DNA of 38,321 nucleotides, from the NCBI RefSeq assembly GCF_000737195.2, contig NZ_JALM01000023.1, positions 1 to 38,321 on the forward strand, in the 5' to 3' direction. Numbering within the stretch: the first letter of the stretch is position 1; every line of letters starts with the position of its first letter. The DNA is from Sciscionella sediminilitoris. Its GTDB lineage: Bacteria > Actinomycetota > Actinomycetes > Mycobacteriales > Pseudonocardiaceae. Positions 6,357 to 22,499 of this stretch are shown piece by piece. Both the position numbers and the translations under genes were made by a program. The notes under the pieces were generated by a model, which saw nothing but the letters and a program-made list of their open reading frames with translations, was not told the origin of the DNA and made no database searches.

Positions 6357-6358
6357 GC

Positions 6359-7342: not shown

Positions 7343-8696
7343 GATCGGCGGGGATTCCTTTCGGTTGAGTGGCAAGCGTTTTCGCCTTGCCGAGCGGTTC
7401 GATACGGCCGACGAGGAACAGGTAGACGAGACAGCCGGCGATGGCCACGAACGCCGCGGACAGCAGCCCCCAGCTGAAGCTGCCGGTCACGCCGTAGAGC
7501 CAGCCGATGACCGCGGGGCTGGCGATCCCGGCGAGGTTCGCGATGCCGTTCTGGAACCCCTGGATGGACCCGGCGAGCGACTGGCTCGTCTCCGGCGCGA
7601 TGTCCACCGGGAGTGCGACGATCGAGGAGGTCGCGAACGTGACACAACCGAAGGACACCGACAACAACACCAGGGCCAGTACCGCGCTCGGGGTGAGATC
7701 GGCGAACCCGATGAGCGTGGAACCGAGCATCCCGCCGACGATGCAGGCCTTCCTGGCGAACGTGACCGAGTGCCCGCGCCGGATCAGCGCATCCGAGGCC
7801 CAGCCGCCGAGGAAATTGCCCAGAAACGCGACCAGGCCCGGGATCGTGCCGAAGATGCCGAGTTCCAGGAGATTGAAATGCCGCTCGTCGACCAGATAGG
7901 AGGGGAACCAGGTGATGAAGAAATAGATGACATAGCTCTGGCAACCGAATCCGATCGCCATCCCCCAGACCGTGCGGCTGCGGAACAGATCGCGCCAGCG
8001 GATCCGTGGGCCCGCCTCGGTTTCCGGGCCCGCCTGCTGCCTTCCGGTCCGCGCGCCGCCCTCCTCGATATAGCGCAGTTCCCCTTCCGAGACCCAGCGC
8101 TGCGCATGCGGGCTCCGGTACACGTACAGCCACACGGCGGCCCACACGATGCCCAGTGACGCGGTGGCGATGAACGAGCCCTTCCAGCCGAGCCAGGCGA
8201 TCAGGGCGGTCACCACCGGGACCGCGAGCATGGTGCCACCGCGGGCACCGCTGTCGTAGATGCCGGAGGCGATACCGCGTTCCCGTTTGGGGAACCACTC
8301 CTCCACCACCCGAGCGCTCGCGGGGAACGCGCCCGCCTCGCCGATGCCGAGCAGCAGCCGGATGCCGAACAGCGTTCCGATGCCGCGCGCCACAACGGTC
8401 GCCGCGGTGAACACCGACCACCACACCACCGCGACCGCGAACATCGCGCGGCTGCCCACCTTGTCGACCAGCCAGCCGAGCGGGAGCTGGAACAGTGAAT
8501 ACGTCCAGAAGAACGCCCCGAGTACCAGTCCGGAAAGTGCCGGATCCAGGTGCAGTTCAGTGTTCAGGTACGGCAGGGCGACCGAGAGATTCGCCCTGTC
8601 GATGTAGTTGATGCAGATGGCCAGGAACGCCAGTCCGATGATCAGCCACCGGATCCGTCCACGGCGGCGCGGCGCGGTGTTCCTTGTCGGCGTCAT
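7335..8696 (-). CDS. MFS permease, anion:cation symporter-like
   Basis: This is a 453-residue 12-helix transporter. FLAICINYIDRANLSVALPYL at the first helix, and LGIGEAGAFPASARVVEEWFPKRERG in the first half, are typical of the ACS (phthalate/glucarate/tartrate) branch of the MFS. GGWASDALIRRG is the corresponding loop in the second half. The ATG at 8696 follows GGAGGA. An in-frame extension to 8777 would run into the palindromic operator and was not accepted. The gene is coupled to the downstream ureohydrolase, so it probably imports the guanidino substrate or a related metabolite. It is divergent from the HTH_12-FCD regulator. Confidence 0.9.
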   Translation of the reverse strand: MTPTRNTAPRRRGRIRWLIIGLAFLAICINYIDRANLSVALPYLNTELHLDPALSGLVLGAFFWTYSLFQLPLGWLVDKVGSRAMFAVAVVWWSVFTAATVVARGIGTLFGIRLLLGIGEAGAFPASARVVEEWFPKRERGIASGIYDSGARGGTMLAVPVVTALIAWLGWKGSFIATASLGIVWAAVWLYVYRSPHAQRWVSEGELRYIEEGGARTGRQQAGPETEAGPRIRWRDLFRSRTVWGMAIGFGCQSYVIYFFITWFPSYLVDERHFNLLELGIFGTIPGLVAFLGNFLGGWASDALIRRGHSVTFARKACIVGGMLGSTLIGFADLTPSAVLALVLLSVSFGCVTFATSSIVALPVDIAPETSQSLAGSIQGFQNGIANLAGIASPAVIGWLYGVTGSFSWGLLSAAFVAIAGCLVYLFLVGRIEPLGKAKTLATQPKGIPADHE

Positions 8697-8772
8697 CGAA
8701 TCCTCCGATGCTGCGAGGGGCGCTGCGGTGCGCCGCGTGTCCGGCGGAGCATGGCGCAGTCCGCATGTGTTT

Positions 8773-8804
8773 GTCAATATTGACGTACATACGTCAGATA
8801 TGAC
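8773..8804. promoter_or_regulatory. nested palindromic operator
   Basis: Two GTCA-N4-TGAC dyads (8773-8784 and 8793-8804) are spaced exactly 20 bp apart. A perfect 7-bp-arm palindrome, TGACGTAcaTACGTCA, spans 8781-8796. All share the same centre at 8788/8789, so the 32-bp block is an overall imperfect palindrome. It lies between the divergent permease (start 8696) and the FCD regulator (start 8851). Two dimers on one DNA face is the natural reading. Confidence 0.78.
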
Positions 8805-8850
8805 CGTGGCTTATACTCATCGTCACCGTGATCGCAGGACAGGGGGGCGG

Positions 8851-9615
8851 ATGGACCGGCTCGACGTCGATACCGCCGTGCTCCGCATGCTCGATCACGC
8901 CAGCGGACCGGTCGGCGCGCGCGAGATCCGCAACGGGCTGACCCAGGCCGGGTTCGAACTGTCCGAGGCCACCGTCAGCAGGCGGCTCCGCGAACTCGAC
9001 GCGCGCGGGGTCACCGAACCCGTCGAACGCAAAGGACGCGTGCTCACCGAGGACGGCAGGGCCCAGGTGCGTGCCCGGCTGCGCGGACTCGAACACACCG
9101 ACCTGCTCGGCCGCGCCATCGACGTGCGCACCGGGCAGGACGTGCTCAACCTGCTCCGGGCCCGGCGCGCCGTGGAACCCGAGGCGGTGCGCGGGGCGGC
9201 CGGATTCGACGCCGAGGTCATCGATGCCCTGCGGCAGAGCCTCGCCGAACACCGGCGCGCACTCGAGCACGGCGGGCCGATTCCCCGCCAGCTCGTGCTC
9301 GACTTCCACCGCACCGTCACCGAGGCCAGTGCCAACCCGCTGATCTCCGCCATGATCCGGATGGCGCTCGATCCCGCGCTCGATCACGTCGAGGCCGCGC
9401 TCGATGTCATCCTCGAAGCACGGCACACCAGTGCCGAGAGCATCGCCGAACACGCTCGGATCGTCGAGGCACTTGCCGCGGGCGAGCACGACCGCGCCGC
9501 CACAGTGATGACCGAACACCTCGACCGGCTGATCAGCGAGACCGCCGCGTTCATCGACCGCTACGAACCGGACCTCGTGGACCGCCTGCTCGCCTCGGCC
9601 CGTAAGCCCTCGTAA
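8851..9615 (+). CDS. FCD-domain regulator with HTH_12-like winged helix
   Basis: This is a 254-residue regulator. The C-terminal part (about residues 90-235) is an FCD domain of the GntR/FadR type: DVLNLLRARRAVEPEAVRGA, then LDFHRTVTEASANPLI, then a terminal helix with EHARIVEALAAGEHDRA. The N-terminus is not a GntR winged helix. Its pattern (AVLRMLDHASGPVGAREIRN, then LSEATVSRRLRELDARGVTE) resembles the HTH_12 fold described at the start of RNase R and in NrpR. An AGGGGGG stretch precedes the ATG at 8851. It presumably represses the divergent permease-ureohydrolase unit through the palindrome at 8773-8804. Domain assignment of the N-terminus is by eye. Confidence 0.85.
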   Translation: MDRLDVDTAVLRMLDHASGPVGAREIRNGLTQAGFELSEATVSRRLRELDARGVTEPVERKGRVLTEDGRAQVRARLRGLEHTDLLGRAIDVRTGQDVLNLLRARRAVEPEAVRGAAGFDAEVIDALRQSLAEHRRALEHGGPIPRQLVLDFHRTVTEASANPLISAMIRMALDPALDHVEAALDVILEARHTSAESIAEHARIVEALAAGEHDRAATVMTEHLDRLISETAAFIDRYEPDLVDRLLASARKPS

Positions 9616-9642
9616 TCCCCACCGAAGATCGAAGAGGTTCCC

Positions 9643-10623
9643 ATGAACTGGAAAAGAATCCGCATCGCAACATTCTCCGTCGCGATCCTGTTGCTGATGA
9701 CCACCGGCGCATCGAGTGCGGCGGAAGCGGATTCGCCCTCTTCCGATTTCGCGAACAGTTACTCGATCATGAACTACAACATCCAGCAGCTGCCCCGGAT
9801 CGCCGACCCGAGGCCTGCCGTCAAGGACCGGAACGCCCGGGCTGCCGAACAGGTCATCCGGGACGAAGGCAGCGATGTCGTGGTGCTGAACGAGGCCTTC
9901 AGCGTGGAAGCAGCGAAGCTCGCCGAGCGGTTGCGCGATGTCTGGAAGTACCAGACTCCCCTGGTCGGGCTCAGCTGCACGGACGACGGGCAGTGGACGT
10001 CGATGGAGGGGAACTGTTCCAGGAGCCTGATCGTCACCAGCGGCGGGGTCAGGCTGCTGAGCAAGTACCCGATCACCGAACAGCACCAGCTCGTCTATGT
10101 GAACTCCAACTCGAAGACCTGGGACTACAAGGCGAACAAGGGTGCCGCGCTGGTCCGCATCGAGAAAGACGGCGGATCGTTCTGGGTCGCGGCGACGCAT
10201 CTGCAGGCCGACGAGAATGACCTCGAAGCCACCAGGAAAACTCGAAGCGCCCAGCTGGCCGAACTGAAGGAATTCATCGGAAAACACGCGGAAAACGAAC
10301 CGGTGACGGTTTCCGGTGACCTGAACATCCCTTACCGGGCCGACCTGGAAAAGAAGTACTCGGACACCGAGTACAAAGAGGCACAGCGGACACTCGGTGC
10401 CGCATTGGACACCGCCAAGAAACCGCCGTACACCTACGACGCCACCATCAACGAAACCGTGCGCAAGGGCTACCCCTCGACCCACGAAAGCCTCGACTAC
10501 ATCGGCGGCATGACCGGGGCCCGTTTCGCCCCGGAAAAGGTGAGCGGCACGCACATCCTCGGCTATCCCGAGGGTTCGGCGCCGTCCGATCACCAGCCCC
10601 TTGTCGCCACGGTGCGGTACTGA
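9643..10623 (+). CDS. secreted sphingomyelinase C-like phosphodiesterase
   Basis: This is a 326-residue exported protein of the endonuclease/exonuclease/phosphatase fold, closest in pattern to bacterial neutral sphingomyelinases. A signal peptide (KRIRIATFSVAILLLMTTG, cleavage near residue 27) opens it. The fold's active-site segments occur in order: MNYNIQQLP, DVVVLNEAF, ATHLQAD, VSGDLNIP and the final SDHQP with the catalytic His. HESLDYIGG near the C-terminus also fits. Such enzymes cleave sphingomyelin to phosphocholine and ceramide; phosphatidylcholine or another phosphodiester is possible here. Codon use is noticeably richer in AAG, AAC and GAA than in the neighbours, which may indicate transfer. 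The start lies after GAAGAGG. Confidence 0.85.
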   Translation: MNWKRIRIATFSVAILLLMTTGASSAAEADSPSSDFANSYSIMNYNIQQLPRIADPRPAVKDRNARAAEQVIRDEGSDVVVLNEAFSVEAAKLAERLRDVWKYQTPLVGLSCTDDGQWTSMEGNCSRSLIVTSGGVRLLSKYPITEQHQLVYVNSNSKTWDYKANKGAALVRIEKDGGSFWVAATHLQADENDLEATRKTRSAQLAELKEFIGKHAENEPVTVSGDLNIPYRADLEKKYSDTEYKEAQRTLGAALDTAKKPPYTYDATINETVRKGYPSTHESLDYIGGMTGARFAPEKVSGTHILGYPEGSAPSDHQPLVATVRY

Positions 10624-10689
10624 CCGCGGCCGGTTCACCGCTGGCGTAATCCCTCGCGACCGCCGCCGGTTCCGCGGTGCAATGGTCCG

Positions 10690-11385
10690 GTGGCGGCGGG
10701 ATACGACGAGATAGCGGACTGGTACGCCGAACAGTTCCACGACACCCAGCACGGCGAGCCCGGGCACGACCCGCTCGGTATCGGCCGGGCACTGCGTGAA
10801 CTACTCGGGGGCGGGGACGGCGGGATGTGCCTGGAAATCGGCTGTGGCACCGGGATCCACGCCGCCCTCGTGCGAGAACTGGGCTGGGCTCCCCTCGGCA
10901 TCGACCTGTCCGCCGGAATGCTGCGCCATGCCCGCGGGCGGCTGCCGATCGCACGAGCCGATGCCGCCCGGCTGCCCATCCGGGACGACAGCATCCCTGC
11001 CGCACTCGCCGCGATGGTGCACACCGATATGCCCGGATACCTCGGCGTGCTCACCGAAGTGGCCAGGGTGCTGCGGCCGGGCGGGGTTTTCGTGCACATC
11101 GGGGTTCATCCATGCTTCTGCGGCGGATTCGCCGACCGCAGCGACCCCGAGGCCGTGGTGCTCCGTCCCGGTTATCTCGACGTCCACTGGACCAGGGAAT
11201 CGTGGACCGACAAGGGAATCCGCGACAAGGTGGGCGCGGCACACCGGCCACTGCCCGAACTGCTGAACGCCTTCCCGGCCGCCGGGCTGACACTCGAACG
11301 GTTCACCGAGGGCGGATCCCCGCTCCCGGTGACCCTGGCGGTCAGAGCTCGCAACCGCGGCACCGAGGGCATTCAGACCGGCTGA
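10690..11385 (+). CDS. class I SAM-dependent methyltransferase
   Basis: This is a 231-residue Rossmann-fold methyltransferase. Motif I is LEIGCGTGIHAALVRELG, with the acidic strand-2 position in PLGIDLSAGMLRHAR. ADAARLPIRDDSIPAALAAM corresponds to motifs II/III, and VARVLRPGGVFVHIG to the strand-5 region. This is the UbiE/Methyltransf_11 pattern, which does not predict a substrate. The cysteine-containing HPCFCGGF stretch is unusual for the family but is not a known motif. The GTG at 10690 has no clear Shine-Dalgarno sequence. The gene converges with the membrane-protein gene, the two overlapping by 13 bases. Confidence 0.85.
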   Translation: MAAGYDEIADWYAEQFHDTQHGEPGHDPLGIGRALRELLGGGDGGMCLEIGCGTGIHAALVRELGWAPLGIDLSAGMLRHARGRLPIARADAARLPIRDDSIPAALAAMVHTDMPGYLGVLTEVARVLRPGGVFVHIGVHPCFCGGFADRSDPEAVVLRPGYLDVHWTRESWTDKGIRDKVGAAHRPLPELLNAFPAAGLTLERFTEGGSPLPVTLAVRARNRGTEGIQTG

Positions 11386-12434
11386 TCGACGCGGCCGGTC
11401 GCCGATTGCCGCCGCAGCGCCCGGGAAAGCTCCACCATCTCGTCCAGCGCATCGGTCCAGCTCTGCGCGTGCAGGAAGACGGCACCGACCGGATGGCTGC
11501 CTTCGGATTCGGCGTTTTCCGCCGCACGCGACAACTGTAGCGCTCGCTGGTCGTATTCCTCGCGGGCGAATTCCTCGGTATTGGTGATGTGCGGGGAAAG
11601 CCGGACCAGACCGTCGAAGCATTCCACGACCCGGCGGGTGTGCGCGAGGTGCGCGCCCGAGGGCAACAGCAGCATCCACCTGCCGGTCGGTGTGCTTCGC
11701 CGGTCGTGGGTGGACGGGAAGGCCTGGTGCAGGAGCTGCCACAGGGGTTCGAGCGCGCGATAGCTGCTCCGGCAGTGGTACCAGTACCGGATCTTGCGAG
11801 TGACGATGACCAGACCGATCACGAGCAGCCCGAGCACGAAGACGGTACCGGACACCGATTGCCCGAAGTCCGCGATACGAGCCAACGAGGCCGGATACAC
11901 CCCGCTCTGCATCATCACGCGCACCACGCACAGCACGACGTCGTCCACGACGAGCAGAGCCAGCCCGAGGATCGCTATCACGAGCCCGATGGTCTGGACC
12001 CGCGCGGTCCGGCGAACCAGACGAGCAGCTTCCCGGATCGCGAACACGCATCCGATCGCCGAATAGGCGCGGGGCACCAACGGGTCCTGCACCGCTTTCG
12101 GAAGATTCGGTACATCGGCCGGGGTAGTGGTCGGCAACACGAAAACGAGGACCACGGCGATGAGGAACAGTCCCGCCTGCGCGAGCAGGTAGTTGCGGAC
12201 ACCGTCGCGAGCCGCGAGCGCGAAGCCCACGATCGCGGCGAAGACAACGGCCATCAGTACGATGCTCTGCCACCGCACGGACAGCCCGGCCGTGGCTGAA
12301 CCAACCGCGGCCACGAAGAAGATCGCCACGAAGGCGCCCAGGATCCGGTTGCGCGGATTCCGGATCAACCGGATCGTCAGCCAGATGAACCCGATCCAGC
12401 TGACCGCCAAGAAGACCATGGAGGGCACGCTCAT
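11373..12434 (-). CDS. polytopic membrane protein, MAB_1171c-like
   Basis: This is a 353-residue protein. About seven hydrophobic helices occupy residues 1-225, followed by a cytoplasmic domain of about 130 residues beginning near KIRYWYHCRSSYRALEPLWQLL. The layout and its partnership with XRE and ImmA/IrrE genes match the MAB_1171c putative-transporter family of Actinobacteria, whose function is unknown. The W-rich RALEPLWQLLHQAFP stretch is typical of that C-terminal domain. The ATG at 12434 overlaps the metallopeptidase stop in ATGA, so expression is coupled. A longer frame upstream lies inside the metallopeptidase gene and is not accepted. Family assignment is from memory of the pattern. 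Confidence 0.8.
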   Translation of the reverse strand: MSVPSMVFLAVSWIGFIWLTIRLIRNPRNRILGAFVAIFFVAAVGSATAGLSVRWQSIVLMAVVFAAIVGFALAARDGVRNYLLAQAGLFLIAVVLVFVLPTTTPADVPNLPKAVQDPLVPRAYSAIGCVFAIREAARLVRRTARVQTIGLVIAILGLALLVVDDVVLCVVRVMMQSGVYPASLARIADFGQSVSGTVFVLGLLVIGLVIVTRKIRYWYHCRSSYRALEPLWQLLHQAFPSTHDRRSTPTGRWMLLLPSGAHLAHTRRVVECFDGLVRLSPHITNTEEFAREEYDQRALQLSRAAENAESEGSHPVGAVFLHAQSWTDALDEMVELSRALRRQSATGRVDQPV

Positions 12435-12952
12435 CGGATGGCCAGCTCCCCCAGCAGCGCCTTGTCGAACTCGCGCACCGTGGCATCCGATGGCGGGGCC
12501 ACCCGCATGACCCGCTGATCCCACTGCCCGATCATGTCGGCGAAGACCTCGGCCTCGTGTTCGTGCGCATCGTCGTAGCAGGACCGGCGGAGCACCGCCT
12601 GAATGAAGCTCGCCGGTACCGCGGGGAAAATCGTCTGCAGTGCCTCACGATCCACTTCATCGCTGGTGTGTTCCAGCAGCACGTGCCCGAGTTCGTGCAG
12701 CAGGATCGTCCGCTGGTGCGGTGGAATCGTCGCCGACTGGTACAGGATCCAGTCCTCGTCGTAGCTGAGCCAGAGCCCGAACACATCGGTGCGCAGCGGA
12801 TAGGCGACGAACTTCAGCGGTTTGCCCCTGCGTTTCTCGATGGCCTGGCGCAGCTGTTCGAAATCCAGCGGCGGATGCACGTCGAGCCGTTCGAGCTCGG
12901 CACGGCACCAGCGCGCCAGCTTCCGCCTGTGCTGCCTGTCCTTCGGTTCCAC
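12431..12952 (-). CDS. ImmA/IrrE-family metallopeptidase-like protein
   Basis: This is a 173-residue protein with the zinc-protease motif HELGH at residues 86-90 and a following acidic segment (HEHEAEVFAD, about 130-139) that could supply the third ligand. ImmA/IrrE proteins typically cleave or inactivate a partner XRE repressor in response to a signal, as shown for ImmA-ImmR in ICEBs1. Here the XRE gene lies immediately upstream with a six-base gap, and a membrane protein overlaps downstream. A derepression switch is the reasonable inference. The active-site motif is intact. Confidence 0.9.
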   Translation of the reverse strand: MEPKDRQHRRKLARWCRAELERLDVHPPLDFEQLRQAIEKRRGKPLKFVAYPLRTDVFGLWLSYDEDWILYQSATIPPHQRTILLHELGHVLLEHTSDEVDREALQTIFPAVPASFIQAVLRRSCYDDAHEHEAEVFADMIGQWDQRVMRVAPPSDATVREFDKALLGELAIR

Positions 12953-12958
12953 GCCCGG

Positions 12959-13405
12959 CTACTCCGTTTCCTTCCGACGTCTGCCGTGCCGTTCCTGCTG
13001 CAGCCGTTCGACGTGTTCCATCGCGTCCAGCAGCCCCTCGGGGGAAAGCTTGTCCGCGCGCCCGGCCACCTTCCGGAGCCTGCTGTCCCGGACCTTGGCC
13101 AGTAACCTCAGCTGTGCCGCGATATCACGTGCCGCGTCCTCGTCGACGAACCACGAGACACTGACCCCGAAGAACTGCGCCAGGATCGCCGCGTTGTTGA
13201 GGCTCGGATTCCGGCTGCGCCCCTCCCGCAGCTGCCAGACACTCACCCGGCTCACGTAGTTCCCGTGCTCCCCGCACCAGTCGGATACTTCCTGGTTGGT
13301 GTATTCGCGCCCTTCGGGGTGCCGGTAGAGATGGAAAAGCAGGTTCAGCAAGACCGAGAACGGCGGCTTGTCCGGTCCGGCCGCCGTGTCCGCATTGGCT
13401 GCCAT
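12959..13405 (-). CDS. XRE-family transcriptional regulator
   Basis: This is a 148-residue DNA-binding protein. The helix-turn-helix lies in TNQEVSDWCGEHGNYVSRVSVWQLREGRS (about residues 36-64). The following LNNAAILAQFFGVSVSWFVDE is the usual fourth-helix region of XRE/Cro proteins that pair with ImmA/IrrE. The C-terminal half is helical and highly charged. The ATG at 13405 follows GGAGGT at good spacing. It heads the three-gene operon with the metallopeptidase and membrane protein and is divergent from the diguanylate cyclase. The repeated 16-bp elements at both promoters are its probable operators. Confidence 0.9.
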   Translation of the reverse strand: MAANADTAAGPDKPPFSVLLNLLFHLYRHPEGREYTNQEVSDWCGEHGNYVSRVSVWQLREGRSRNPSLNNAAILAQFFGVSVSWFVDEDAARDIAAQLRLLAKVRDSRLRKVAGRADKLSPEGLLDAMEHVERLQQERHGRRRKETE

Positions 13406-13450
13406 CACGCCACCTCCCTCGCATCGCCGGTCACGGTACGACACGAAGCT

Positions 13451-13466
13451 CGTTAACTCCAGTTAC
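13451..13466. promoter_or_regulatory. XRE operator candidate, copy 1
   Basis: CGTTAACTCCAGTTAC contains the palindrome TAACT-CC-AGTTA (13454-13465) with perfect 5-bp arms. It lies about 45 bases upstream of the XRE start on the minus strand. The same element recurs at 13534-13549 in the same orientation, identical at 13 of 16 positions. Confidence 0.65.
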
Positions 13467-13533
13467 GGAACCCGATTCCACACGATCGCACTCCCCCACC
13501 TGAGGTGAGTGCCCTATCGGCTCTTGCCGCCCT

Positions 13534-13549
13534 CGTTAACTGGATTTAC
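13534..13549. promoter_or_regulatory. XRE operator candidate, copy 2
   Basis: CGTTAACTGGATTTAC contains the palindrome TAACT-GG-ATTTA (13537-13548; four of five arm positions pair). It lies 32 bases before the diguanylate cyclase start. With copy 1 it suggests that the XRE protein controls both divergent promoters. Confidence 0.65.
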
Positions 13550-13581
13550 ATTGCAGCTCAGCGCACATTCGGAGGGAGTTC

Positions 13582-14184
13582 ATGTCATCTGACCATGTGA
13601 TGCTGGGCAGCTGTTGTGGCACGTGCGGGCAGATCGTCGGCATCGACAGCCGCACCGGACTCCTCAATTGGGACGCCTGGCGCGAACGGGCCGAACAGAC
13701 CCTGAACCGGACCCAAGCCCCCGTCGCACTGCTGTTCTGCGACGTGGACAACTTCAAAGCCGTCAACGACACCTTCGGACATCAGGCCGGGGACACTCTG
13801 CTCCGCTCCATCGCCTTCGGCATACAGCACGCTACCCGGCTCAACGACCTGGCGGGACGCTACGGAGGGGACGAGTTCGTGCTGCTGCTTCCCGGTGATG
13901 ACAACGGAACCGCGGTCGCGCACCGGATTCGCGAACACGTGCGGCGGATCTCGGTCGGCCCGCCCAAGGCGGAAAGCGAGGCCCCTGCGCTCGGCACCGG
14001 ACTCTCGATCGGAGTCACCACCCGCGCGCTGACCGAGCAGACCTCGCTGGACGAGTTGATCCGGCGCGCGGATTCCGCCATGTACCAAGCGAAACGGGCC
14101 GGTGGCGATCGGGCCGTGACGGGATCGGCCGCACCGCCCCGGGAGGGAAACCTGCTGCTGCACCCGGTACGGGAACGGTTCTGA
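13582..14184 (+). CDS. stand-alone diguanylate cyclase (GGDEF domain)
   Basis: This is a 200-residue soluble protein consisting almost only of a GGDEF domain, which makes cyclic di-GMP from two GTP. The active motif GGDEF is intact at residues 95-99. The inhibitory I-site RLND (86-89) sits exactly five residues before it, so product feedback is expected. FCDVDNFKAVNDTFGHQAGD carries the metal-binding Asp and the GTP-binding segment. No transmembrane or PAS/GAF sensor domain is present. Instead there is a short N-terminal cysteine cluster, SCCGTCG (residues 10-16), that could bind metal or respond to redox. It is divergent from the XRE-ImmA operon with a shared operator element. GGAGG precedes the ATG. 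Confidence 0.92.
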   Translation: MSSDHVMLGSCCGTCGQIVGIDSRTGLLNWDAWRERAEQTLNRTQAPVALLFCDVDNFKAVNDTFGHQAGDTLLRSIAFGIQHATRLNDLAGRYGGDEFVLLLPGDDNGTAVAHRIREHVRRISVGPPKAESEAPALGTGLSIGVTTRALTEQTSLDELIRRADSAMYQAKRAGGDRAVTGSAAPPREGNLLLHPVRERF

Positions 14185-14189
14185 CCCGT

Positions 14190-15392
14190 TCATCCGATCA
14201 ACAGCACGCCATCCCATCCGCTCGGTGGCGGGGCACCGTTGCGGTAGGTGTGCAGGGCGAGCGCGGCTCCGGCGGTACCGGTCAGCAGACCGGGATCCTG
14301 TTGCCCGTCGTGGGTCAGCGTTGCCGCGGTCCGTTCGGCGAGCCGGTCCGCCGCAACGCCGAGCGCACAGGCGGGATCATCGGCCCGCATCCGGACGGCG
14401 AGGTGCAGCAGACCGGCCGTACCGTGGCACAGCCCGGTTTCGGGTCCCGGTTCCGGCAGTTCCCGCATCGCCTGCCTGGCCAGCGCGAGCCAGTCCGGCC
14501 GGTTCGCGGCCAGCCCGGCGAGCTGCACCGCGCGAGCCACACCGGGGGCGCCGTAACACCACGCCGTCCGGGAACGCGGCAGCTCGGCGGGACCTTCGGT
14601 GTAGTCGGCGAGATCCAGCGCGGCGGGCCAGTATCGGCCGTGTTCATCGATTCCCGACCAGGCGCGCAGGAACTCGACGATGGTCTCGGTGGCTTCGCCG
14701 TGCCCCGGCACGCACACCCCGTGCCGCCAAGTGAGAGCCAACAGCGCGAGCGGACCGGGAATACCGTGCGCCATACCGAGATTGGCGTGCCCGGAACCGG
14801 GCGGCGCGCCAGGATCCGGCGCACAGGCCACCCACCAGCCAGGCAGGCGCCGCTCGGTGATCGGCCGCAGGAGCAGGCGGTAGTACTCGAGAATCTCCCG
14901 CAGCAGCGCCTCCGCCTCCGCGCTGACCAGGCACCTGCGCAGCAGATACCTGCCCAGTCCGGTCAGCCCGGCGACCAGATCGAAGCGCGTGCTGTCCCAC
15001 GCCATCGCCCCGGCGGCCAGCCGATCGTGTTCCTCGTCGAGCAGTACGCGGACGATCCGGAACACCGCGGTGTCCAGCCCGGCGAGCAAGGCAGCGTACT
15101 CCCCCTCGTGCTGCGCGGCGGCACTCGCGGCGAAGGCCAGTGCGGGCACACCCGCGGCCAGGGTGTGCCTGCCGGTACCGGACAGCGCGGCGTTGGCGGC
15201 CGCGAGATACCGGTGGGCGACCGGACGCAGTTCCGGCTCGAAGTGACCGAGTTCGGCGTAGCACAACGCAATCCCGAGCTGACTGTCCAGCGTCGGCCAG
15301 CGGGCACCTTCCGGACCGGGCGGGCAGGTGGCCGCCGGATCGGCCAGCCGCTCGGTGGCAGCGGCGAGTGCCACGTCGAACCGTGAGCTCAT
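14190..15392 (-). CDS. lanthipeptide cyclase LanC
   Basis: This is a 400-residue zinc enzyme expected to add cysteine thiols to dehydroamino acids, forming lanthionine rings. The alpha/alpha-barrel repeats carry GMAHGIPGP (His209, matching the catalytic-region His of NisC), WCYGAPG (zinc ligand Cys279) and GLCHGTAG (zinc ligands Cys322 and His323). All three ligands are present. The ATG at 15392 overlaps the LanB stop in ATGA, showing coupling. A longer frame to 15602 lies within LanB and is not used. It converges with the diguanylate cyclase gene, separated by five bases, and completes a LanB-LanC operon divergent from the precursor peptide at 18599. Confidence 0.92.
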   Translation of the reverse strand: MSSRFDVALAAATERLADPAATCPPGPEGARWPTLDSQLGIALCYAELGHFEPELRPVAHRYLAAANAALSGTGRHTLAAGVPALAFAASAAAQHEGEYAALLAGLDTAVFRIVRVLLDEEHDRLAAGAMAWDSTRFDLVAGLTGLGRYLLRRCLVSAEAEALLREILEYYRLLLRPITERRLPGWWVACAPDPGAPPGSGHANLGMAHGIPGPLALLALTWRHGVCVPGHGEATETIVEFLRAWSGIDEHGRYWPAALDLADYTEGPAELPRSRTAWCYGAPGVARAVQLAGLAANRPDWLALARQAMRELPEPGPETGLCHGTAGLLHLAVRMRADDPACALGVAADRLAERTAATLTHDGQQDPGLLTGTAGAALALHTYRNGAPPPSGWDGVLLIG

Positions 15393-18300
15393 GCGCGACC
15401 GGCCCGGGCACGTCCGCGATAGGCCGCGATCACCCTGTTGGCAACGGAATTGGCCCGCTGTTCGGTTTCCCGGTCGATCCCTGCCAAGCGGTTGTGGTGC
15501 ATGTGCAGGATGCCGTCGACCGCGCCGCGCTGCCGTTCGCCGTCCGCTTCCGCGCGCAGCGCCTCGGCGTAGTCCCGGATGGCCGGTGCCCGGTCCGCGC
15601 AAGCGGCACGGATCGCGGCGGCAGGGGTTCCCGGCGGTGCCGCGGAAAGCCCGAGCGCCAGTTCGGTCGCCTGGCGGACGTGCCGGTGCATGCCCTCGTA
15701 GTGCTGGACGGCGCTGCCGCGATACCAGTCGGTCCAGTCCGGGTCCATCGAGCGGAGCAGATCCACGAAGTTCACCGCGACCAGCACCTCGGGTGGCAGC
15801 GGCTCGGCCGGACCGTCCAGCAACGGAAGCTGGGCCAGCACGGCCGCGCTGTCCGCGCCGAACGCGTGCTCGGCGGCCGCCAGCACGGCGGGGCCGCCGT
15901 ACCGATCCTGTTCCGGTTCATAGGTGTCGATGGTGAGCTTGCGGAGCAGGCCGCAGGTGCGCAGTTCCGCGGCCCAGTCGTGCAACCGCGGGAGCAGCTG
16001 CCGGTTGAGCGATTCCGCCGGGCCGTGGAACCGCAACCGCACATGTGGATCAGGATCGGCGTAGCGGATGAAGAACCAGCGCGGTTCGCCCACTCCGGTA
16101 AGCAAGCGCGGCAGCTGCGCGGTGAGCAGTTCGTGGTGCCGTTCCGGCCTGCTGTACAGCTTCGCGAACAGCCACTCACCGCCGGGCGGGGTGGCTGTCC
16201 GGGTGCTCGCACGCCGCCCGGCGCAACGGGTTTCGGCCCGGGCGCCGCGGCGGGCGCGCAGTGGCACCACGATCTCGCTGGCATGGCCGTGCAGCCAGTC
16301 CAGTTCGGACTCGTCCCGGTGCGCGGTCTCCACGAGGACCAGTTCGGGTTTGCGGCGCAGTTCATCGCACAGCAGCCGCCGGTGCAGCGGCCGGCTCAGG
16401 TCCAGTTCGACGCCGTGATCGGACTCCCGGACCTGCACCTGATCCGGAACACCGAACTGCTTCCGCCAGCGCGCGACCTCGGCGTCCCAGTCCGTCCCGT
16501 TCCGCGCCGCCTCGGCGAGACCGGGCGAGGGCCGCCAGCGCGCGGGCGCGAGCACCGTACGGCCGTGGCGCACCCTCGGCAGGTAGGGCAGGCAGTCCAG
16601 GCCGCCCCAATGCCAGGGCGAGAGGGTGCGGGTGCCGTACCGGGAGAGTTCGCGCACCAGGCGGACCGCGTTCGGAGCGTGTTTGTCGGTGTCGAGCATC
16701 TGCGGGCACACCACGGTGATCGGCCGTCCATCGCGCAACGAGACCACGAACAGTCCATTGTGGTCGGCGGCGATCCCGATGTCCTCGACGCCGAGCACAT
16801 CCGGACGGCCACGATCGTCGAAGGTTCCGAACGCCAGGGTGTGTTCCACCGCGCGGTCCACCCGCAGGATGTTGACGTGCCGGGCCGCCGTCGGTTCGAA
16901 ATTCGGCTGACCGTACAACCGCCCGTTCCCGTCCCCGGCCTGCACCGCGGCGGGTTCGCCGCCTTCGGTGAGATAACCGAACCGGCCGAACAGCGCACCC
17001 GTCCCGTTGGCCATCGCGGACGCGCAGACCAACCGGAAATCGCCCCGCTCGATCGCGGCCACCGACGGGGCGAGCAGTTGGAAGGTCAGCTCGGCGGTAT
17101 CCGGTCCGGGAGCCGGATTCCCGTTCGGGGCAAGGGTTTCCATGGTGTCCTCGTCCAGCACGATCTCCCCGGAGCCGGAGAACAGCGCCTGCTGCACGAG
17201 CTCGCCACAGAGCCGGTCCCAGCGCCGGTCCTCCTCGGCTCCGGGCACGGTGAACCGGCTGACCGGCGGTTGCCGGTACCCCGCGGGCGGGCCGATGCCC
17301 CGCTCCGGATCGAGCACCTCCTTGACCGGGACACCACCGCCGATCCCGTATGCGTCGACGAAGGCGTAGTACCACTGCGTGAGGTGCGCGGGTGCGCCCT
17401 CCGGCGGAGACAACCGCAATAGCGTCGCGGCCGCCGATTCGGCCTCCCGGGCCACTATCGGCGGCAATCGCAACCGCGCGTCGGCGCGCAGATCGACCTG
17501 GAGCGGGGTGGCGCGGGCCGGGTGCAGTTCCCGCGCCGCGGAGCTCGCCGCGTTCCAGGCTGCCCGTCCCGCACCGAGTGGTGCCGCGGCGTAGTCCGCG
17601 AACAGGCCGGCGATCCGGTGCAGCTGCCCGGTTTCCGGTGCCGGGGTACGGTCCAGAACCGTCAGCGCCGCGCGCATCGGGTCGGCTGCGGTGACCGTCG
17701 CGGACAGCTCCGTCCGCAGCAGCCCTGCCTCGACAAGGCCGAGCACCAGAGCCTGCGCCCGGTCCGCGCCCGCGCCAGGAAAGGCCTCGGTGATCCGGTC
17801 GAGCAGCGCGGCGCACTCGATCGGGGCGTGCGCCGCCGACAGTGCCGCCCGCACGGGTGGAGTGGCCCGCACCGACTGTTCCTGCGCCGGCTCGGTACCG
17901 GGACCGCGGCATCCGAGGTACGGCAGCACGAACCGCCCGGCCCGCTCGAAAACGAGATCGTTCGCGCACACGCGCAGACACCGCAGCACTTCGGGCCGCC
18001 GCTGCAGTACGGCCAGCACCGCGGTGAACCACTCACCGTCCGGCCGAACCCCCTTGTGATGGGCCGTCCCGATCTCCGCCTCGGCCCGCTCGGCGAACTC
18101 CCCGACCGCTACTCCGGCGAGCACCCCGAACGGCGTCGGGCGCCCGCTCATCCGCAACAGGTACCGGCACGCGGCGTACGCGGCACGGCGCAGCTGCCCG
18201 GAACTCACCTCCGCGCCCGCGTCCAGCCTGCGCAACACGGTGGCCAGCGACTCGCTGGAGACCTCGACCGCCTCCCGGACCACCGGATCTGCGACCACCG

Positions 18301-18427
18301 CGCGCAGCAGCCGCTCATCCTCGACCGGTTCGTCATCGCCGTACGGCAACCTGCCGCTGCTGTGCGGTAATACCGGTGTCCGCAAGTAGACGACCCCGAA
18401 TGCGGAAAACCGTTCTTCCGTGCGCAC
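15389..18427 (-). CDS. class I lanthipeptide dehydratase LanB
   Basis: This is a 1012-residue full-length dehydratase. The large N-terminal glutamylation domain (about 1-720) includes the conserved LLRMSGRPTPFGVLAGV (residues about 90-106). The C-terminal SpaB_C/elimination domain (about 740-1005) includes WFFIRYADPDPHVRLRF. In this family glutamyl-tRNA is used to glutamylate Ser/Thr of the precursor, and elimination then gives dehydroalanine or dehydrobutyrine. Both domains are on one chain, as in NisB and unlike the split enzymes of thiopeptide loci. The GTG at 18427 follows GAGGGG. It is the first gene of the LanB-LanC operon and divergent from the small precursor gene 171 bases away. Confidence 0.93.
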   Translation of the reverse strand: MRTEERFSAFGVVYLRTPVLPHSSGRLPYGDDEPVEDERLLRAVVADPVVREAVEVSSESLATVLRRLDAGAEVSSGQLRRAAYAACRYLLRMSGRPTPFGVLAGVAVGEFAERAEAEIGTAHHKGVRPDGEWFTAVLAVLQRRPEVLRCLRVCANDLVFERAGRFVLPYLGCRGPGTEPAQEQSVRATPPVRAALSAAHAPIECAALLDRITEAFPGAGADRAQALVLGLVEAGLLRTELSATVTAADPMRAALTVLDRTPAPETGQLHRIAGLFADYAAAPLGAGRAAWNAASSAARELHPARATPLQVDLRADARLRLPPIVAREAESAAATLLRLSPPEGAPAHLTQWYYAFVDAYGIGGGVPVKEVLDPERGIGPPAGYRQPPVSRFTVPGAEEDRRWDRLCGELVQQALFSGSGEIVLDEDTMETLAPNGNPAPGPDTAELTFQLLAPSVAAIERGDFRLVCASAMANGTGALFGRFGYLTEGGEPAAVQAGDGNGRLYGQPNFEPTAARHVNILRVDRAVEHTLAFGTFDDRGRPDVLGVEDIGIAADHNGLFVVSLRDGRPITVVCPQMLDTDKHAPNAVRLVRELSRYGTRTLSPWHWGGLDCLPYLPRVRHGRTVLAPARWRPSPGLAEAARNGTDWDAEVARWRKQFGVPDQVQVRESDHGVELDLSRPLHRRLLCDELRRKPELVLVETAHRDESELDWLHGHASEIVVPLRARRGARAETRCAGRRASTRTATPPGGEWLFAKLYSRPERHHELLTAQLPRLLTGVGEPRWFFIRYADPDPHVRLRFHGPAESLNRQLLPRLHDWAAELRTCGLLRKLTIDTYEPEQDRYGGPAVLAAAEHAFGADSAAVLAQLPLLDGPAEPLPPEVLVAVNFVDLLRSMDPDWTDWYRGSAVQHYEGMHRHVRQATELALGLSAAPPGTPAAAIRAACADRAPAIRDYAEALRAEADGERQRGAVDGILHMHHNRLAGIDRETEQRANSVANRVIAAYRGRARAGRA

Positions 18428-18598
18428 CCAATCCCCTCACGAACCTTCGGCGCCGCCATGGCGCTCCTCTCGCAATACCGAACCATTCTTGTCAAGGGGA
18501 CCGAATCGAGCCGATAGCGAATCCGGGATGCTCGTGCCATCATGGCGAAGCCATCGCGATCGGCACGACAAGAACACCTGCGATGAGAGGTTGGGGAT

Positions 18599-18775
18599 AT
18601 GCAAGACACACTCGATTCCCGTGCTCAGGGCGAACTCGACATGTTCGACCTCGAGCTGAAGGTCGTTCCCGCGGACGTGCAGCAGGTCGGATCCGCCTAC
18701 GCGGATCCCTCCTTCAGCAGCTGTCCGGAGTGCAACAACCCGAGCTGGAAGTGCAGCCCGCCGTTCCGCGGCTGA
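18599..18775 (+). CDS. putative class I lanthipeptide precursor (LanA)
   Basis: This is a 58-codon gene. The leader contains MFDLELKVVP (residues 15-24), which fits the F-N/D-L-D/E box that LanB enzymes recognise and the FxLD type of actinomycete precursors. The putative core after about residue 30 holds three cysteines (42, 45, 52) and six serines (32, 38, 40, 41, 49, 53) but no threonine. Likely rings are within SFSSC, SCPEC and SWKC, all lanthionine and none methyllanthionine. GAGAGG precedes the ATG. It is divergent from LanB-LanC. The start, leader box and location agree, so the call is strong. Ring pattern and cleavage site are inference. Confidence 0.85.
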   Translation: MQDTLDSRAQGELDMFDLELKVVPADVQQVGSAYADPSFSSCPECNNPSWKCSPPFRG

Positions 18776-18899
18776 CCGGGTAGAAAACCCCGGCAATAAC
18801 GGGCCGATCGCCCGTATTCCGATCCGTGCCTGATGCCGGAATCGAAACCGGGGAAAGTTCTAGGGAAATCCCGCAAATCCGCGGGCGGACGACACAGTT

Positions 18900-18930
18900 G
18901 CCGGTGGCCGGGAAATTCCCGGCCACCGGC
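18900..18930. terminator. strong hairpin after the precursor gene
   Basis: GCCGGTGGCCGGGAA (18900-18914) and TTCCCGGCCACCGGC (18916-18930) form perfect 15-bp arms around one base; in RNA the loop would open to a few A/U. No T-run follows, as in many actinomycete terminators. It lies 125 bases after the precursor stop and just before the GNAT start at 18955, so it probably separates the two transcripts. Confidence 0.7.
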
Positions 18931-18954
18931 GGCTTCGACTGGGAAACCATCCGG

Positions 18955-19707
18955 ATGCAGACCGAGGAACACCCCACCGAGCGGGATCTCGTCGACGGCT
19001 GGGCGATCGGGCCCACGGTCCGGATACGCCAGGCCCGGCCGGAGGATCTGCCCGGGCTTCCCGGGATCCTGGCGCTGGCCGGGGTTCCGCTGCTCAGTGG
19101 TGTCCGGCGAGCCGTACAGGATGGCCTGGCCGGGTCCGCGCTGCGTGCCGGGCTGCGCGGCGGAACGCGGGCATTCCACGCGGCAACCGGCCCGGTGCTC
19201 GGGGACGCCGAACGGGCGGTCAGCGAGGTGACCCCGGCGGTGAGCCTGGTGCTGGTCGCGGAATCCGCGCGGCACGGCCTGGTCGGCGGACTGATGGCAC
19301 TGCCGCCGGTCTACCTGCTGCCGTACCTCTGCCAGGGCACCGGAGCCGAACGGGATCGCGAGCAGTGCCGCACCCTGTTGCTGCGCTGCGCCAAGATCCA
19401 GGCCATGGCGGTCACCGAGCGGGCACGGGGTAGCCGCATCGGCGCCGCCATGCTGCACCGTTGCAGCGCCGTGTACCGCGCCTGCGGGCACCGGTTCGTC
19501 TACGGTCAGACACCACCGGACCGCGATCCTGGCGAGTACTACCGCCGGGAAGGATTCCGCGTCCTCGAACCCGGCGAGCCGCTGGACCTGGAACCCGCCT
19601 GTGGCCTCCGTACCCGGCTCGAGCCCGGGGCCACCGAACGCATTTGCCTGTTCCTGCGATCGCCATCCGATGACCGGACCCGGTCAGGCCCGGGAAGCGG
19701 TGCGTAG
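18955..19707 (+). CDS. GNAT-family N-acetyltransferase
   Basis: This is a 250-residue protein with a GNAT fold in the second half. AMAVTERARGSRIGAAML (about residues 151-167) is the acetyl-CoA pyrophosphate-binding motif A, and REGFRVLEPGEPL matches the last strand. The N-terminal half (IRQARPEDLPGLPGILALAG) has the usual first strand, followed by a helical insert. I chose the ATG at 18955 because the upstream GTG at 18826 would make the strong hairpin at 18900-18930 coding. No clear Shine-Dalgarno is visible. It is next to the lanthipeptide precursor, so it could acetylate the peptide or serve self-protection, but an unrelated role is equally possible. Confidence 0.78.
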   Translation: MQTEEHPTERDLVDGWAIGPTVRIRQARPEDLPGLPGILALAGVPLLSGVRRAVQDGLAGSALRAGLRGGTRAFHAATGPVLGDAERAVSEVTPAVSLVLVAESARHGLVGGLMALPPVYLLPYLCQGTGAERDREQCRTLLLRCAKIQAMAVTERARGSRIGAAMLHRCSAVYRACGHRFVYGQTPPDRDPGEYYRREGFRVLEPGEPLDLEPACGLRTRLEPGATERICLFLRSPSDDRTRSGPGSGA

Positions 19708-20067
19708 CCTGGCGAGTGCGATGGCCTGAACGCCCGCGAAAGCCGCGACGTCCACGGCGATGGCCACGAGCGCGAACACGGCGAGAAAACCCGGCGCGGT
19801 CAGGGAAATCCCGGCCATCGCGAGCGCGGCGGCCAGATTGGCGATCAGCACCACGCGCAGCGCGCGGTGCAGCGGGAGCCGCGCCACCATCCAGATCACC
19901 GCCGCCGACCAGGCGATCACCGCGCCGCCGAGGATCGCGATGGCGGTGACCGGAAGCGGGATCACATCGGCGACGTACGGGGCGGCGAACAGGAACGCAA
20001 GCCCGAGCAGCAGGCAGTATCCCGCGTCCAGCCGGAGCGTCACGACCCCGAGAGTGCGACCAGTCAT
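19684..20067 (-). CDS. small four-helix membrane protein, unknown
   Basis: This is a 127-residue protein with four hydrophobic segments: LDAGYCLLLGLAFLFAAPYV, VTAIAILGGAVIAWSAAVIW, ALRVVLIANLAAALAMAGIS and FLAVFALVAIAVDVAAFAGV. No family motif is recognised. It is convergent with the acetyltransferase gene, whose last 24 bases overlap its 3' end. It may be a small stress or redox membrane protein, but nothing in the sequence proves this. Confidence 0.75.
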   Translation of the reverse strand: MTGRTLGVVTLRLDAGYCLLLGLAFLFAAPYVADVIPLPVTAIAILGGAVIAWSAAVIWMVARLPLHRALRVVLIANLAAALAMAGISLTAPGFLAVFALVAIAVDVAAFAGVQAIALARLRTASRA

Positions 20068-20110
20068 ACCGCCCAGTCTAGGAAGAACCGCGCCTACGGG
20101 TAAAGATCAC

Positions 20111-20129
20111 TGTTGCGGACACGGCAACA
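20111..20129. promoter_or_regulatory. operator-like dyad upstream of hydrolase-permease pair
   Basis: TGTTGC (20111-20116) and GCAACA (20124-20129) form perfect 6-bp arms around a 7-nt spacer, giving a 19-bp site. It lies in the 148-base gap between the membrane-protein and hydrolase genes. No regulator gene is adjacent. Confidence 0.5.
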
Positions 20130-20146
20130 AGGATTGTGCTCATGCG

Positions 20147-20174
20147 CACGGCGGGTCGATGATCCCCCGCCGTG
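20147..20174. promoter_or_regulatory. hairpin in the hydrolase leader
   Basis: CACGGCGGG (20147-20155) and CCCGCCGTG (20166-20174) pair perfectly over nine bases with a ten-base loop. It ends 41 bases before the hydrolase start. It could be a leader structure, a terminator or a second operator. Confidence 0.5.
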
Positions 20175-20215
20175 AGCGAGGAGCACACCGATTCCTCGCA
20201 CGACAGGAGGATCCC

Positions 20216-21118
20216 GTGACCACCCGACCCTTGCCGTTCTTCTCGAGCGGACTACGCCTCGACGCCGATCTGCACCTGCCCGAGGACGGCGGCGAGCACG
20301 CGCCCTATCCGGTGGTGCTCGCCTGCTCCGGCTATCAGGGGCAGAAGACCATCCACCCGGAACGATTCGCCCGCGCCCTCAATCCCCTCGGTTACGCCGT
20401 TCTCGCGTTCGACTACCGCGGATTCGGGCTCAGTGAAGGGGAACGGGGCAGGCTCGTACCGCAGGAATGGGCCGAGGACGTGCGTGCGGGCATCGACCGG
20501 ATCGGCACCGTGTCCGAAGTGGACGCCGGACGCCTCGCACTCGTCGGCTGGGGACTCGGCGGTGGCGTGGTCGTCGCCGAGGCCGCCGAGGATCCGCGGG
20601 TGCGCGCGGTCGCCTGCCTCAACGGGATCGCGGACGGAACCCGGTCCACCCGCAATATGCACGACGAGGCGAGCTGGGCGGACCTGCTGCACCGGATCGA
20701 GGCCGATCGGGGCAGGCGGGCCAGCACCGGACGTTCCGAGCTCGCCGACCCGTGGGACATCGTGCGGCTCAATCTGGACGACCGCACCGATGGCTACGTC
20801 GGCGCCGAGCTGTACAAGACTCCGGGATTCGGCAGCGGAGTCACCCTGGAATCGGCGGATTTCCTGCTGCGGTTCGCTCCGGAACAGGTGGTCGAGCGGA
20901 TCTCGCCGCGACCGCTGCTCGTACTGCACGGTGCGCACAACGACCTGCACAAGCCGGTCGAGGCACAGGCGATGTACGAGCACGCGCGCGAGCCGAAACG
21001 CCTGGAACTGCTCGAAGGGCGCGGGCACACCGAGTGGATGTTCGATGACGACCCCACCTTCAAGCACGTGGTCGATGTGCTCGACGAATTCCTCGGCACC
21101 GCGCTGATCGCCAGCTGA
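20216..21118 (+). CDS. alpha/beta-hydrolase with altered nucleophile elbow
   Basis: This is a 300-residue alpha/beta-hydrolase fold protein of the dienelactone-hydrolase/acetyl-esterase type. VVLACSGYQG corresponds to the oxyanion region, FDYRGFGLSEGE to the usual loop, and GRGHTEWMFDD to the catalytic His segment. The nucleophile elbow reads GWGLGGG (residues 111-117), where Gly113 (codon GGA) replaces the expected serine. It is therefore likely non-hydrolytic, or uses another chemistry. The GTG at 20216 follows a perfect AGGAGG. The MFS gene begins 22 bases after the stop, so the two are probably cotranscribed, with the protein acting on or binding the transported compound. Confidence 0.87.
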   Translation: MTTRPLPFFSSGLRLDADLHLPEDGGEHAPYPVVLACSGYQGQKTIHPERFARALNPLGYAVLAFDYRGFGLSEGERGRLVPQEWAEDVRAGIDRIGTVSEVDAGRLALVGWGLGGGVVVAEAAEDPRVRAVACLNGIADGTRSTRNMHDEASWADLLHRIEADRGRRASTGRSELADPWDIVRLNLDDRTDGYVGAELYKTPGFGSGVTLESADFLLRFAPEQVVERISPRPLLVLHGAHNDLHKPVEAQAMYEHAREPKRLELLEGRGHTEWMFDDDPTFKHVVDVLDEFLGTALIAS

Positions 21119-21140
21119 GAACCCGGAAAAGGAGGTCGCA

Positions 21141-22499
21141 ATGGCCGCGACCCGGCGAATGCTGCGCAAACTGACCACCGCAACCGTGTGGGGCCAGGGA
21201 CTCGACGGCTATGACCTCGGGGTGATCAGTGTGGTCATGCCCATGGTCGTGCTGCACCTGCACATGTCCCCGGTGTGGGCCGGGCTCATCGGCGCCTCCT
21301 CGCTGATCGGGATCTTCTTCGGTGGGCCCGTTTTCGGCATGCTCACCGACCGGTTCGGCAGGCGTACCACCTTCACCGTCGATCTGGTGCTGTTCCTGAT
21401 CACCGCGCTGCTGCAGGTTTTCGTCACCGATCCGGCGCAGTTGTTCGTCATCCGGCTGGTCATGGGGATCGCGATCGGCGCCGAATACGCCATCGGGGCC
21501 ACGATGCTCGCCGAGTTCTCCCCGGCACGCGGGCGTGGGCGGCGCATCGCCGGACTCGAGGTCGCGTGGTTCGCCGGTTACCTGGCCGCGGTCGCGATCT
21601 CCTACGGGTTGCTCGATCTGGCCGGTGTCTCGTGGAACTGGGTGCTGGCCACCGGGGCACTGCCCGCGCTGTACTGCCTGATCGTCCGGCGCGGACTGCC
21701 CGAATCCCCGCGCTGGCTGCTTTCCCGCGGCCGGACCGAGGAAGCCCGCGCGATCATCGATACCTACCTCGGCGGGCAGGCCGCCTACCGGGGCGAGGAC
21801 TTCCACGGCGAACGGCCGAGCCTGTCCAGGGGCACACTGCACGCACTGTTCGCGCCCGGGCAATGCGCCCGGACGGTGTTCGCCTGCGTGTTCTACGCCT
21901 GCCTCGTCGCACCGTACTTCGCGATCTTCACCTTCGCCCCGAGCGTGCTCGCGACACTGCACCTCTCCGATCCGGCCGCGGGCACCATCACCGTCAACGC
22001 CCTCGCCGCCTGCGGAGCGCTGGCCGGGATGCTCGTGATCGAACGGATCGGCAGGCGCAGACTGCTCATCGGCCCGTTCTGGATCATGGCCGCCTGCCTG
22101 TGCCTGGTCGGAATCTGGGGCCAGGCACCGGGAATCATCGTCGTCGGCTGCTTCGCCGTGTTCGCCTTCTTCAACGCCGCGTCGAGCGATCTGACCCCGG
22201 TCTATCCGGCCGAACTCTTCCCGACCGAGATCCGCACCACCGGGACCGGGCTCGCCGCCGCGGCCAGCCGGATCGGCGCGGCATTGGGCACCTTCGCCCT
22301 GCCGAGCGGGCTCAACACCATCGGCGTCGGGCCGAGCATGCTGATCGCGGCGGGAATCTGCGTCATCGGCGCGGTGACCGCACAACTGCTCGCCCCCGAG
22401 ACCACCGGGCTCACCCTGACCAGGGCGACCCGCCCCGGCATGCAGCCGCTGACCACCGAACCGCCGCACAGCACGGATTCCCGCTCCGCGAACCACTGA
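21141..22499 (+). CDS. MFS permease, sugar-porter/aromatic-acid type
   Basis: This is a 452-residue 12-helix transporter. VWGQGLDGYDLGVISVVMP in helix 1, GMLTDRFGRRTTF in the 2-3 loop, and LPESPRWLLSRGRTEEA with LFPTEIRTTGTGL are the family's sugar-porter signatures. This shape is shared with 4-hydroxybenzoate-type permeases, so an aromatic or sugar substrate cannot be separated by eye. AAGGAGGT precedes the ATG. It is cotranscribed with the alpha/beta-hydrolase at 20216 and converges on the YxiG-like gene with a nine-base gap. Confidence 0.9.
   Translation: MAATRRMLRKLTTATVWGQGLDGYDLGVISVVMPMVVLHLHMSPVWAGLIGASSLIGIFFGGPVFGMLTDRFGRRTTFTVDLVLFLITALLQVFVTDPAQLFVIRLVMGIAIGAEYAIGATMLAEFSPARGRGRRIAGLEVAWFAGYLAAVAISYGLLDLAGVSWNWVLATGALPALYCLIVRRGLPESPRWLLSRGRTEEARAIIDTYLGGQAAYRGEDFHGERPSLSRGTLHALFAPGQCARTVFACVFYACLVAPYFAIFTFAPSVLATLHLSDPAAGTITVNALAACGALAGMLVIERIGRRRLLIGPFWIMAACLCLVGIWGQAPGIIVVGCFAVFAFFNAASSDLTPVYPAELFPTEIRTTGTGLAAAASRIGAALGTFALPSGLNTIGVGPSMLIAAGICVIGAVTAQLLAPETTGLTLTRATRPGMQPLTTEPPHSTDSRSANH

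Follow-up and report, generated by a model that had tools for sequence, protein, structure and literature searches.

A class I lanthipeptide locus with an adjoining acetyltransferase gene in Sciscionella sediminilitoris

Does a short group of divergent genes in the actinobacterium Sciscionella sediminilitoris make a lanthipeptide, and how many genes belong to it? The window analysed here, a 38,321-nucleotide stretch (contig C23, NZ_JALM01000023.1) of the 7.4-Mb source genome, carries a small precursor gene, lanA, beside genes for a LanB dehydratase and a LanC cyclase. These genes very probably form a lanthipeptide pathway, whatever the gene downstream of lanA does. That gene encodes a protein of the GNAT acetyltransferase family, which on balance probably acts in the same pathway. 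The initial annotation had described a compact class I trio: the class stands, on profiles, alignments, selection and synteny, and the trio is one gene short, as the GNAT gene (18955–19707) lies within the conserved unit. The features are as follows.

14190..15392, minus strand: lanC, lanthionine cyclase (PF05147; motifs aligned with NisC)
15389..18427, minus strand: lanB, full-length Ser/Thr dehydratase of 1012 residues with glutamylation and elimination domains (Pfam, structure alignments)
18428..18598, no strand: lanA–lanB intergenic region, presumed site of both promoters (mostly conserved with Sciscionella marina)
18599..18775, plus strand: lanA, 58-residue class I lanthipeptide precursor (open reading frame; S. 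marina ortholog; weak NF038155 leader match)
18900..18930, no strand: perfect 15-bp inverted repeat in the lanA–GNAT gap, terminator-like, without a T run
18955..19707, plus strand: GNAT-family acetyltransferase gene, downstream of lanA and on the same strand (S. marina conservation)

The precursor, the dehydratase and the cyclase

Complete LanB and LanC genes and the small gene at 18599 were located where the initial annotation had placed them, and are confirmed by Pfam profiles, the open reading frame and the S. marina ortholog. The lanC start codon (15392–15390) overlaps the lanB stop (ATGA), and lanA diverges from lanB–lanC, starting 171 bp from lanB. As reference copy we used S. marina DSM 45152, contig C7 (NZ_KB905386.1, 127,413 bases; LanB at 6620–9670); gene calls in loci outside the window are rough and were made for this analysis. 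A survey of relatives for the trio had been proposed, and S. marina indeed keeps lanA, lanB and lanC in the same arrangement, with 74%, 78% and 77% amino-acid identity, respectively.

The lanA start codon is preceded by GATGAGAGG, and the leader block, MFDLELKVVPADVQQ, is identical in S. marina, as are residues 15–29. The core holds five serines (Ser38, Ser40, Ser41, Ser49 and Ser53), three cysteines (Cys42, Cys45 and Cys52) and one lysine (Lys51). At the same place S. marina encodes the ortholog MQNTLATRNRDEHDMFDLELKVVPADVQQAEASNADPSFSSCPECSNPSWKCTPPFRR, and the core is near-identical in both species (ADPSFSSCPEC[NS]NPSWKC[ST]PPFR), with all three cysteines, Lys51 and four of the five serines unchanged. 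The fifth, Ser53, is a threonine in S. marina, so the residue there would still suit dehydration, and an additional serine stands at position 46. The core had been called Ser-only with three cysteines, which is right for the window; in the ortholog the threonine departs from it.

Between the window and S. marina, lanA has a pairwise synonymous divergence (dS) of 0.48 and a non-synonymous to synonymous ratio (omega) of 0.26. Omega is 0.11 for residues 34–58 compared with 0.43 for residues 1–33; the numbers are small, with just 4 non-synonymous and 6 synonymous changes across 34–58. A single window open reading frame of 30–120 residues combines F[DN]L[DE][LIVF] with at least three subsequent cysteines, and 100 first-order Markov simulations gave a mean of 0.0 (0/100 with a match), for a pattern picked post hoc when the lanA frame was already known. 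The ortholog under selection and the simulations together rule out a chance open reading frame: lanA is a real precursor gene. Against NF038155 (FDLD family class I lanthipeptide) it scores 14.3 bits, below the curated cut-off of 20, a weak leader match.

LanB matches Lant_dehydr_N (PF04738, 2.1e-172) and Lant_dehydr_C (PF14028, 8e-48), both over the cut-off, and aligns with structure 5ehk (1.1e-117), which we take to be the actinobacterial LanB MibB of NAI-107, and with NisB (5e-27). LanC matches LANC_like (PF05147, 4.6e-39, over the cut-off) and aligns with 8byk (5e-22) and NisC (3e-5); its AHG, WCYG and CHG motifs, presumably the active-site and zinc residues, are in register with those of NisC. 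Both genes are under purifying selection similar to that on lanA (lanB dS 0.47, omega 0.27; lanC dS 0.50, omega 0.28). The locus is thus identified as class I by its profile matches, by alignment with LanB and LanC proteins of known structure, by selection and by conserved synteny.

With the NisB/NisC and 5ehk systems the locus shares a two-domain LanB, a separate motif-bearing LanC, an acidic FDLEL-type leader and a Ser/Cys core. By contrast, its core is not known to be related to those of NisA and NAI-107, and the locus has a GNAT gene and no clustered exporter, protease or immunity gene. Actinobacterial class I peptides with an acidic leader motif also include the FxLD lanthipeptides with an O-methyltransferase (families I 1–4, PMC7268733). 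We rejected this type: lanA has no TIGR04363 match at E 1, the window proteins scanned have no PF01135 match, and the LanB of an S. marina FxLD-type locus (contig C79) falls in another clade of the LanB tree. The precursor of that locus, at C79 1040–1189, matches TIGR04363 at 1.8e-12.

Class I chemistry is established for the family, with dehydration by LanB and cyclisation by LanC. By analogy, the leader with its FDLEL block would dock the 58-residue precursor on LanB, which would dehydrate core serines via glutamyl-tRNA by glutamylation and elimination. Addition of Cys42, Cys45 and Cys52 to dehydroalanines by LanC would then close as many as three lanthionine rings, as five core serines and three cysteines allow; a possible pattern is Ser38–Cys42, Ser41–Cys45 and Ser49–Cys52. 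Judged from sequence, the enzymology appears standard, the core peptide appears unreported and the GNAT seems a modestly interesting extra gene. With one precursor, one dehydratase, one cyclase and one GNAT, the locus is a small test system, in which the ortholog pair shows the residues that are kept.

Relatives and probable mobility of the cassette

Could the product be new, as the initial annotation had proposed? Credible relatives of the precursor were found only in Sciscionella. The search of the family listed 13 of 390 genomes at E 0.05, the credible ones being the two Sciscionella, and the search of the phylum listed 5 of 396 at E 0.01, the credible one being the source genome; the search of plasmid records found no record. 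Look-alikes outside Sciscionella (11 in the family, 4 with an internal stop; 5 in the phylum, 3 with an internal stop) were taken as chance matches, and 3 of these 16, examined for their neighbours, had no lanB or lanC match. LanC relatives occur in 38 of 386 family genomes at E 1e-50; the 12 top LanC-related loci outside the genus (11 genomes) have no GNAT match above 60 bits and include 7 with candidate precursors, all with other cores.

A tree built from 34 LanBs places the window protein with that of S. marina C7 (100/100), then with that of S. marina contig C54 (96/94), then with a pair (100/100) from contig C11 of the source genome and contig C57 of S. marina. The C54, C11 and C57 LanBs are sisters of the window LanB (52–56% identity; clade 100/100), and these loci share its leader F-D-L-[DE]. 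They differ from it in that their cores are mutually unlike (the C54 precursor ends TPGTCNSECGLTRPGFPGC) and that no match to the window GNAT was found at 1e-6 on the C54 contig or in 20 kb around the C11 and C57 loci. As related lan loci each have their own core, an unseen core is to be expected here, which tempers the novelty. The C11 locus (8867–9118 and 9191–13497) is a second lan locus of the source genome, common to S. marina C57, with precursors that end DTHLTQCTSCPTIC; it also accounts for the second of the two LanC genes of this genome.

A LanB pattern scan of 84,980 species genomes gave 79 loci from 205 relatives, with S. marina C7 at 78% identity and the next at 42%; the scan is not exhaustive, as it missed the C54 and C57 LanBs of S. 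marina. Distant LanB relatives (20–23% identity) also occur in the phage records MG543995.1 (Staphylococcus) and MN270279.1 (Streptococcus). Passages naming Sciscionella in the open-licence literature do not describe this locus; in one such passage Sciscionella SE31 is listed for nonribosomal peptides, polyketides and oligosaccharides.

The window and S. marina C7 have one block in common, window 14190–19664 and C7:10884–5369, at 79.5% nucleotide identity. It starts at the lanC stop and reaches as far as the last 15 codons of the GNAT gene; in the 40 kb of C7 compared nothing else aligns with the window. Since the block common to the two species runs through the GNAT gene, the unit is lanA–GNAT / lanB–lanC, hereafter the cassette. 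The flanks of the window match a different S. marina contig, C57, at 94% (2253–9614) and 91% (19916–21211). At C57:207250, window positions 12445–19915 (7.5 kb) are absent, and the start of a MAB_1171c-family gene (window 12088–12444, 89%) joins directly to 19916. Window 12445–19915 is a variable site.

The cassette is not the only diverged segment here. Beside it, window 11373–14184 holds the MAB_1171c-family gene (11373–12524) with metallopeptidase-like, helix-turn-helix (HTH) and GGDEF genes, a block that S. marina has at C16:79092–81917; 11378–14106 matches C16 at 80% and 72%. A closer MAB_1171c copy, on C57, has its two ends about 12 kb apart. IS110-type and IS481-type transposases and a phage-integrase match lie within 10 kb of the S. 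marina cassette, and the C54 lan locus adjoins an ISL3-type transposase. The dS of the cassette lan genes (0.47–0.50) is about 2.5 times that of lanB in the second lan locus common to both species (0.19). Unrelated sites in the two species, together with divergence above that of the main chromosomal flanks, indicate that the cassette has probably moved, and suggest that it was gained or exchanged apart from the core genome, in either direction.

The acetyltransferase gene

Does the GNAT belong to the pathway? The protein is 70% identical in S. marina. On its own it matches PF13508 at 4.4e-4, under the gathering score; however, 9 of 11 members of its family match this profile, and a search with a profile built from all 11 retrieves GNAT structures (best E 9e-4). 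A predicted structure from a two-row alignment was uninformative (mean predicted local distance difference test, pLDDT, 41). The GNAT gene lies next to lanA in the same orientation in both known copies of the cassette, and this linkage, together with the conserved single core lysine, counts in favour of a pathway role. Its most likely function would be to acylate the peptide, with Lys51 and the N-terminus exposed once the leader is cleaved off as the alternative sites.

A GNAT gene next to a lan locus is already known in kind. PaeN, a GNAT encoded with class I paenibacillin, is described as a precedent for an acylated lanthipeptide in passages of PMC12715929, which also report GNAT families in the vicinity of 14% of class II clusters compared with 5.4% of controls and suggest toxin-type roles for them. 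NpuN of the nostolysamides, a tandem GNAT of a class II system, acylates a Lys side chain according to passages of PMC13060382. As described there, paenibacillin, nostolysamides and the lipid-bearing class III peptides share with the cassette a GNAT or acetyltransferase gene beside lanthipeptide genes. PaeN and NpuN are likened to the cassette GNAT by description only, and NpuN differs in being a tandem GNAT of class II. If the cassette GNAT acts on the peptide, the product would be an actinobacterial class I counterpart of these acylated lanthipeptides.

Several results weigh against a pathway role. The GNAT gene has a higher dS (0.76) than the lan genes and may thus have had a different history. 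The inverted repeat at 18900..18930 stands between lanA and the GNAT gene and makes separate transcripts possible; it was not found in the S. marina counterpart of this gap at the same settings. Twelve other family genomes (14 of 390 overall) encode GNAT relatives at 33–41% identity, and none of the 13 stretches around relatives outside Sciscionella, 5 of which end at a contig end, has a lanB or lanC match. At the C54 lan locus of S. marina no GNAT match appears at E 10 within 1.4–1.6 kb of the lan genes, nor at 1e-6 across the whole 9.2-kb contig. Finally, just two four-gene copies are known, so the linkage rests on a single comparison.

These results fit a passenger GNAT, or an acetyltransferase of small-molecule or toxin type with a task of its own, that shares the mobile segment with lan genes that still make a lanthipeptide. 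Besides the 12 other family genomes, 37 of 72,556 plasmid records carry members of the GNAT family, without lan genes in the stretches read (5 of the 37 plasmid neighbourhoods), and one plasmid relative follows PIN and VapC genes. Such a passenger is harder to reconcile with two copies that preserve the position and orientation of the GNAT gene beside lanA although all that surrounds the block differs. We regard it as a real possibility, on the doubtful side, and retain a GNAT that acts in the lanthipeptide pathway as the preferred account: a roaming family of GNATs here adjoins lan genes and may take part in their pathway. The plasmid relative mentioned above lies on the Saccharopolyspora plasmid NZ_CP031144.1; HTH and PIN-domain genes immediately precede it, and a VapC-type toxin gene is close by.

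Fate of the peptide and neighbouring genes

Where would the peptide go? The ring pattern, acylation and its site, the fate of the peptide and its biological role are all inferred. The absence of an adjacent transporter, protease or immunity gene, claimed in the initial annotation, is borne out for recognisable lan-type genes among the proteins scanned, and leader removal and any export would depend on genes elsewhere. The surroundings of related loci were sampled through 67 proteins, chosen by hand, near 13 related LanB loci. Of the 97 families found there, the 25 commonest are a mixture of metabolic, transport and regulatory ones; none of these is a peptidase or ABC transporter family, and 3 MFS_1, 2 EamA and 1 GntP permease are present; with just these 25 in view, single transporters or proteases may hide near the related loci.

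An exported antibacterial lantibiotic, with protease, exporter and immunity encoded elsewhere, would be compatible with this layout. The core lacks SxSxCTPGC, the nisin-type lipid II motif (it has SFSSC and then PEC), and the conserved block has no immunity gene, both of which speak against it. However, the lack of a clustered protease has precedent: unclustered proteases are documented, and all 44 clusters of the paenilan group are without one, according to passages of PMC8960859. We hold the exported form as a tentative option.

A second possibility starts from the same missing neighbours, since no exporter or protease was found adjacent, and from a LanBC-type, class I, actinobacterial system in a mobile setting. 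The peptide might stay inside the cell and act against phages like the lanthiphages, reportedly the anti-phage lanthipeptides of Shomar et al., with the GNAT activating it, restraining it or mimicking the phage GNAT that those peptides require. Passages of a review, PMC12360287, describe anti-phage lanthipeptides that act intracellularly and are escaped by phages with mutant GNATs. The likeness (LanBC type, Actinomycetota, a GNAT connection) is by description only, and the lanthiphage GNAT is, as described, phage-encoded and was found through escape mutations, whereas the GNAT here sits in the cassette.

The PADLOC library (dated 2023) gave weak matches nearby (capH-like 3.4e-7, capP-like 4.5e-4, mad2-like 3e-9); the proteins concerned have common HTH, metallopeptidase-like and methyltransferase domains that account for them, and we claim no defence island around the cassette. 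LanB, LanC, lanA and the GNAT have no PADLOC match, and the 67 proteins near related LanB loci include 4 PADLOC families with one member each. None of 50,697 phage records matches the GNAT, no PHROG does so at 0.01, and viral_contigs gave 44 pattern stretches with no relative among them; a phage origin of the GNAT is unsupported. We consider an intracellular anti-phage role unlikely. Its most specific form, a mobile class I lanthipeptide whose four genes are one movable unit and whose GNAT is an acylation on/off switch or a phage-GNAT mimic, strikes us as very improbable. If the peptide were anti-phage, it would link a host GNAT to the puzzle that GNATs pose for the anti-phage lanthipeptides already reported.

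Beyond the GNAT gene lie two genes that were considered as protease and exporter.

20078–21118: alpha/beta hydrolase, similar to the quorum-quenching lactonase UilS (3.4e-35, below the cut-off)
21141–22499: sugar-porter-type major facilitator superfamily (MFS) gene

These roles are unsupported, and S. marina carries 19916–21211 with no cassette next to it. On the other side of the cassette, window 9643–10623 encodes a secreted-looking, sphingomyelin phosphodiesterase-like protein (TIGR03395, 2.4e-34, below the cut-off).

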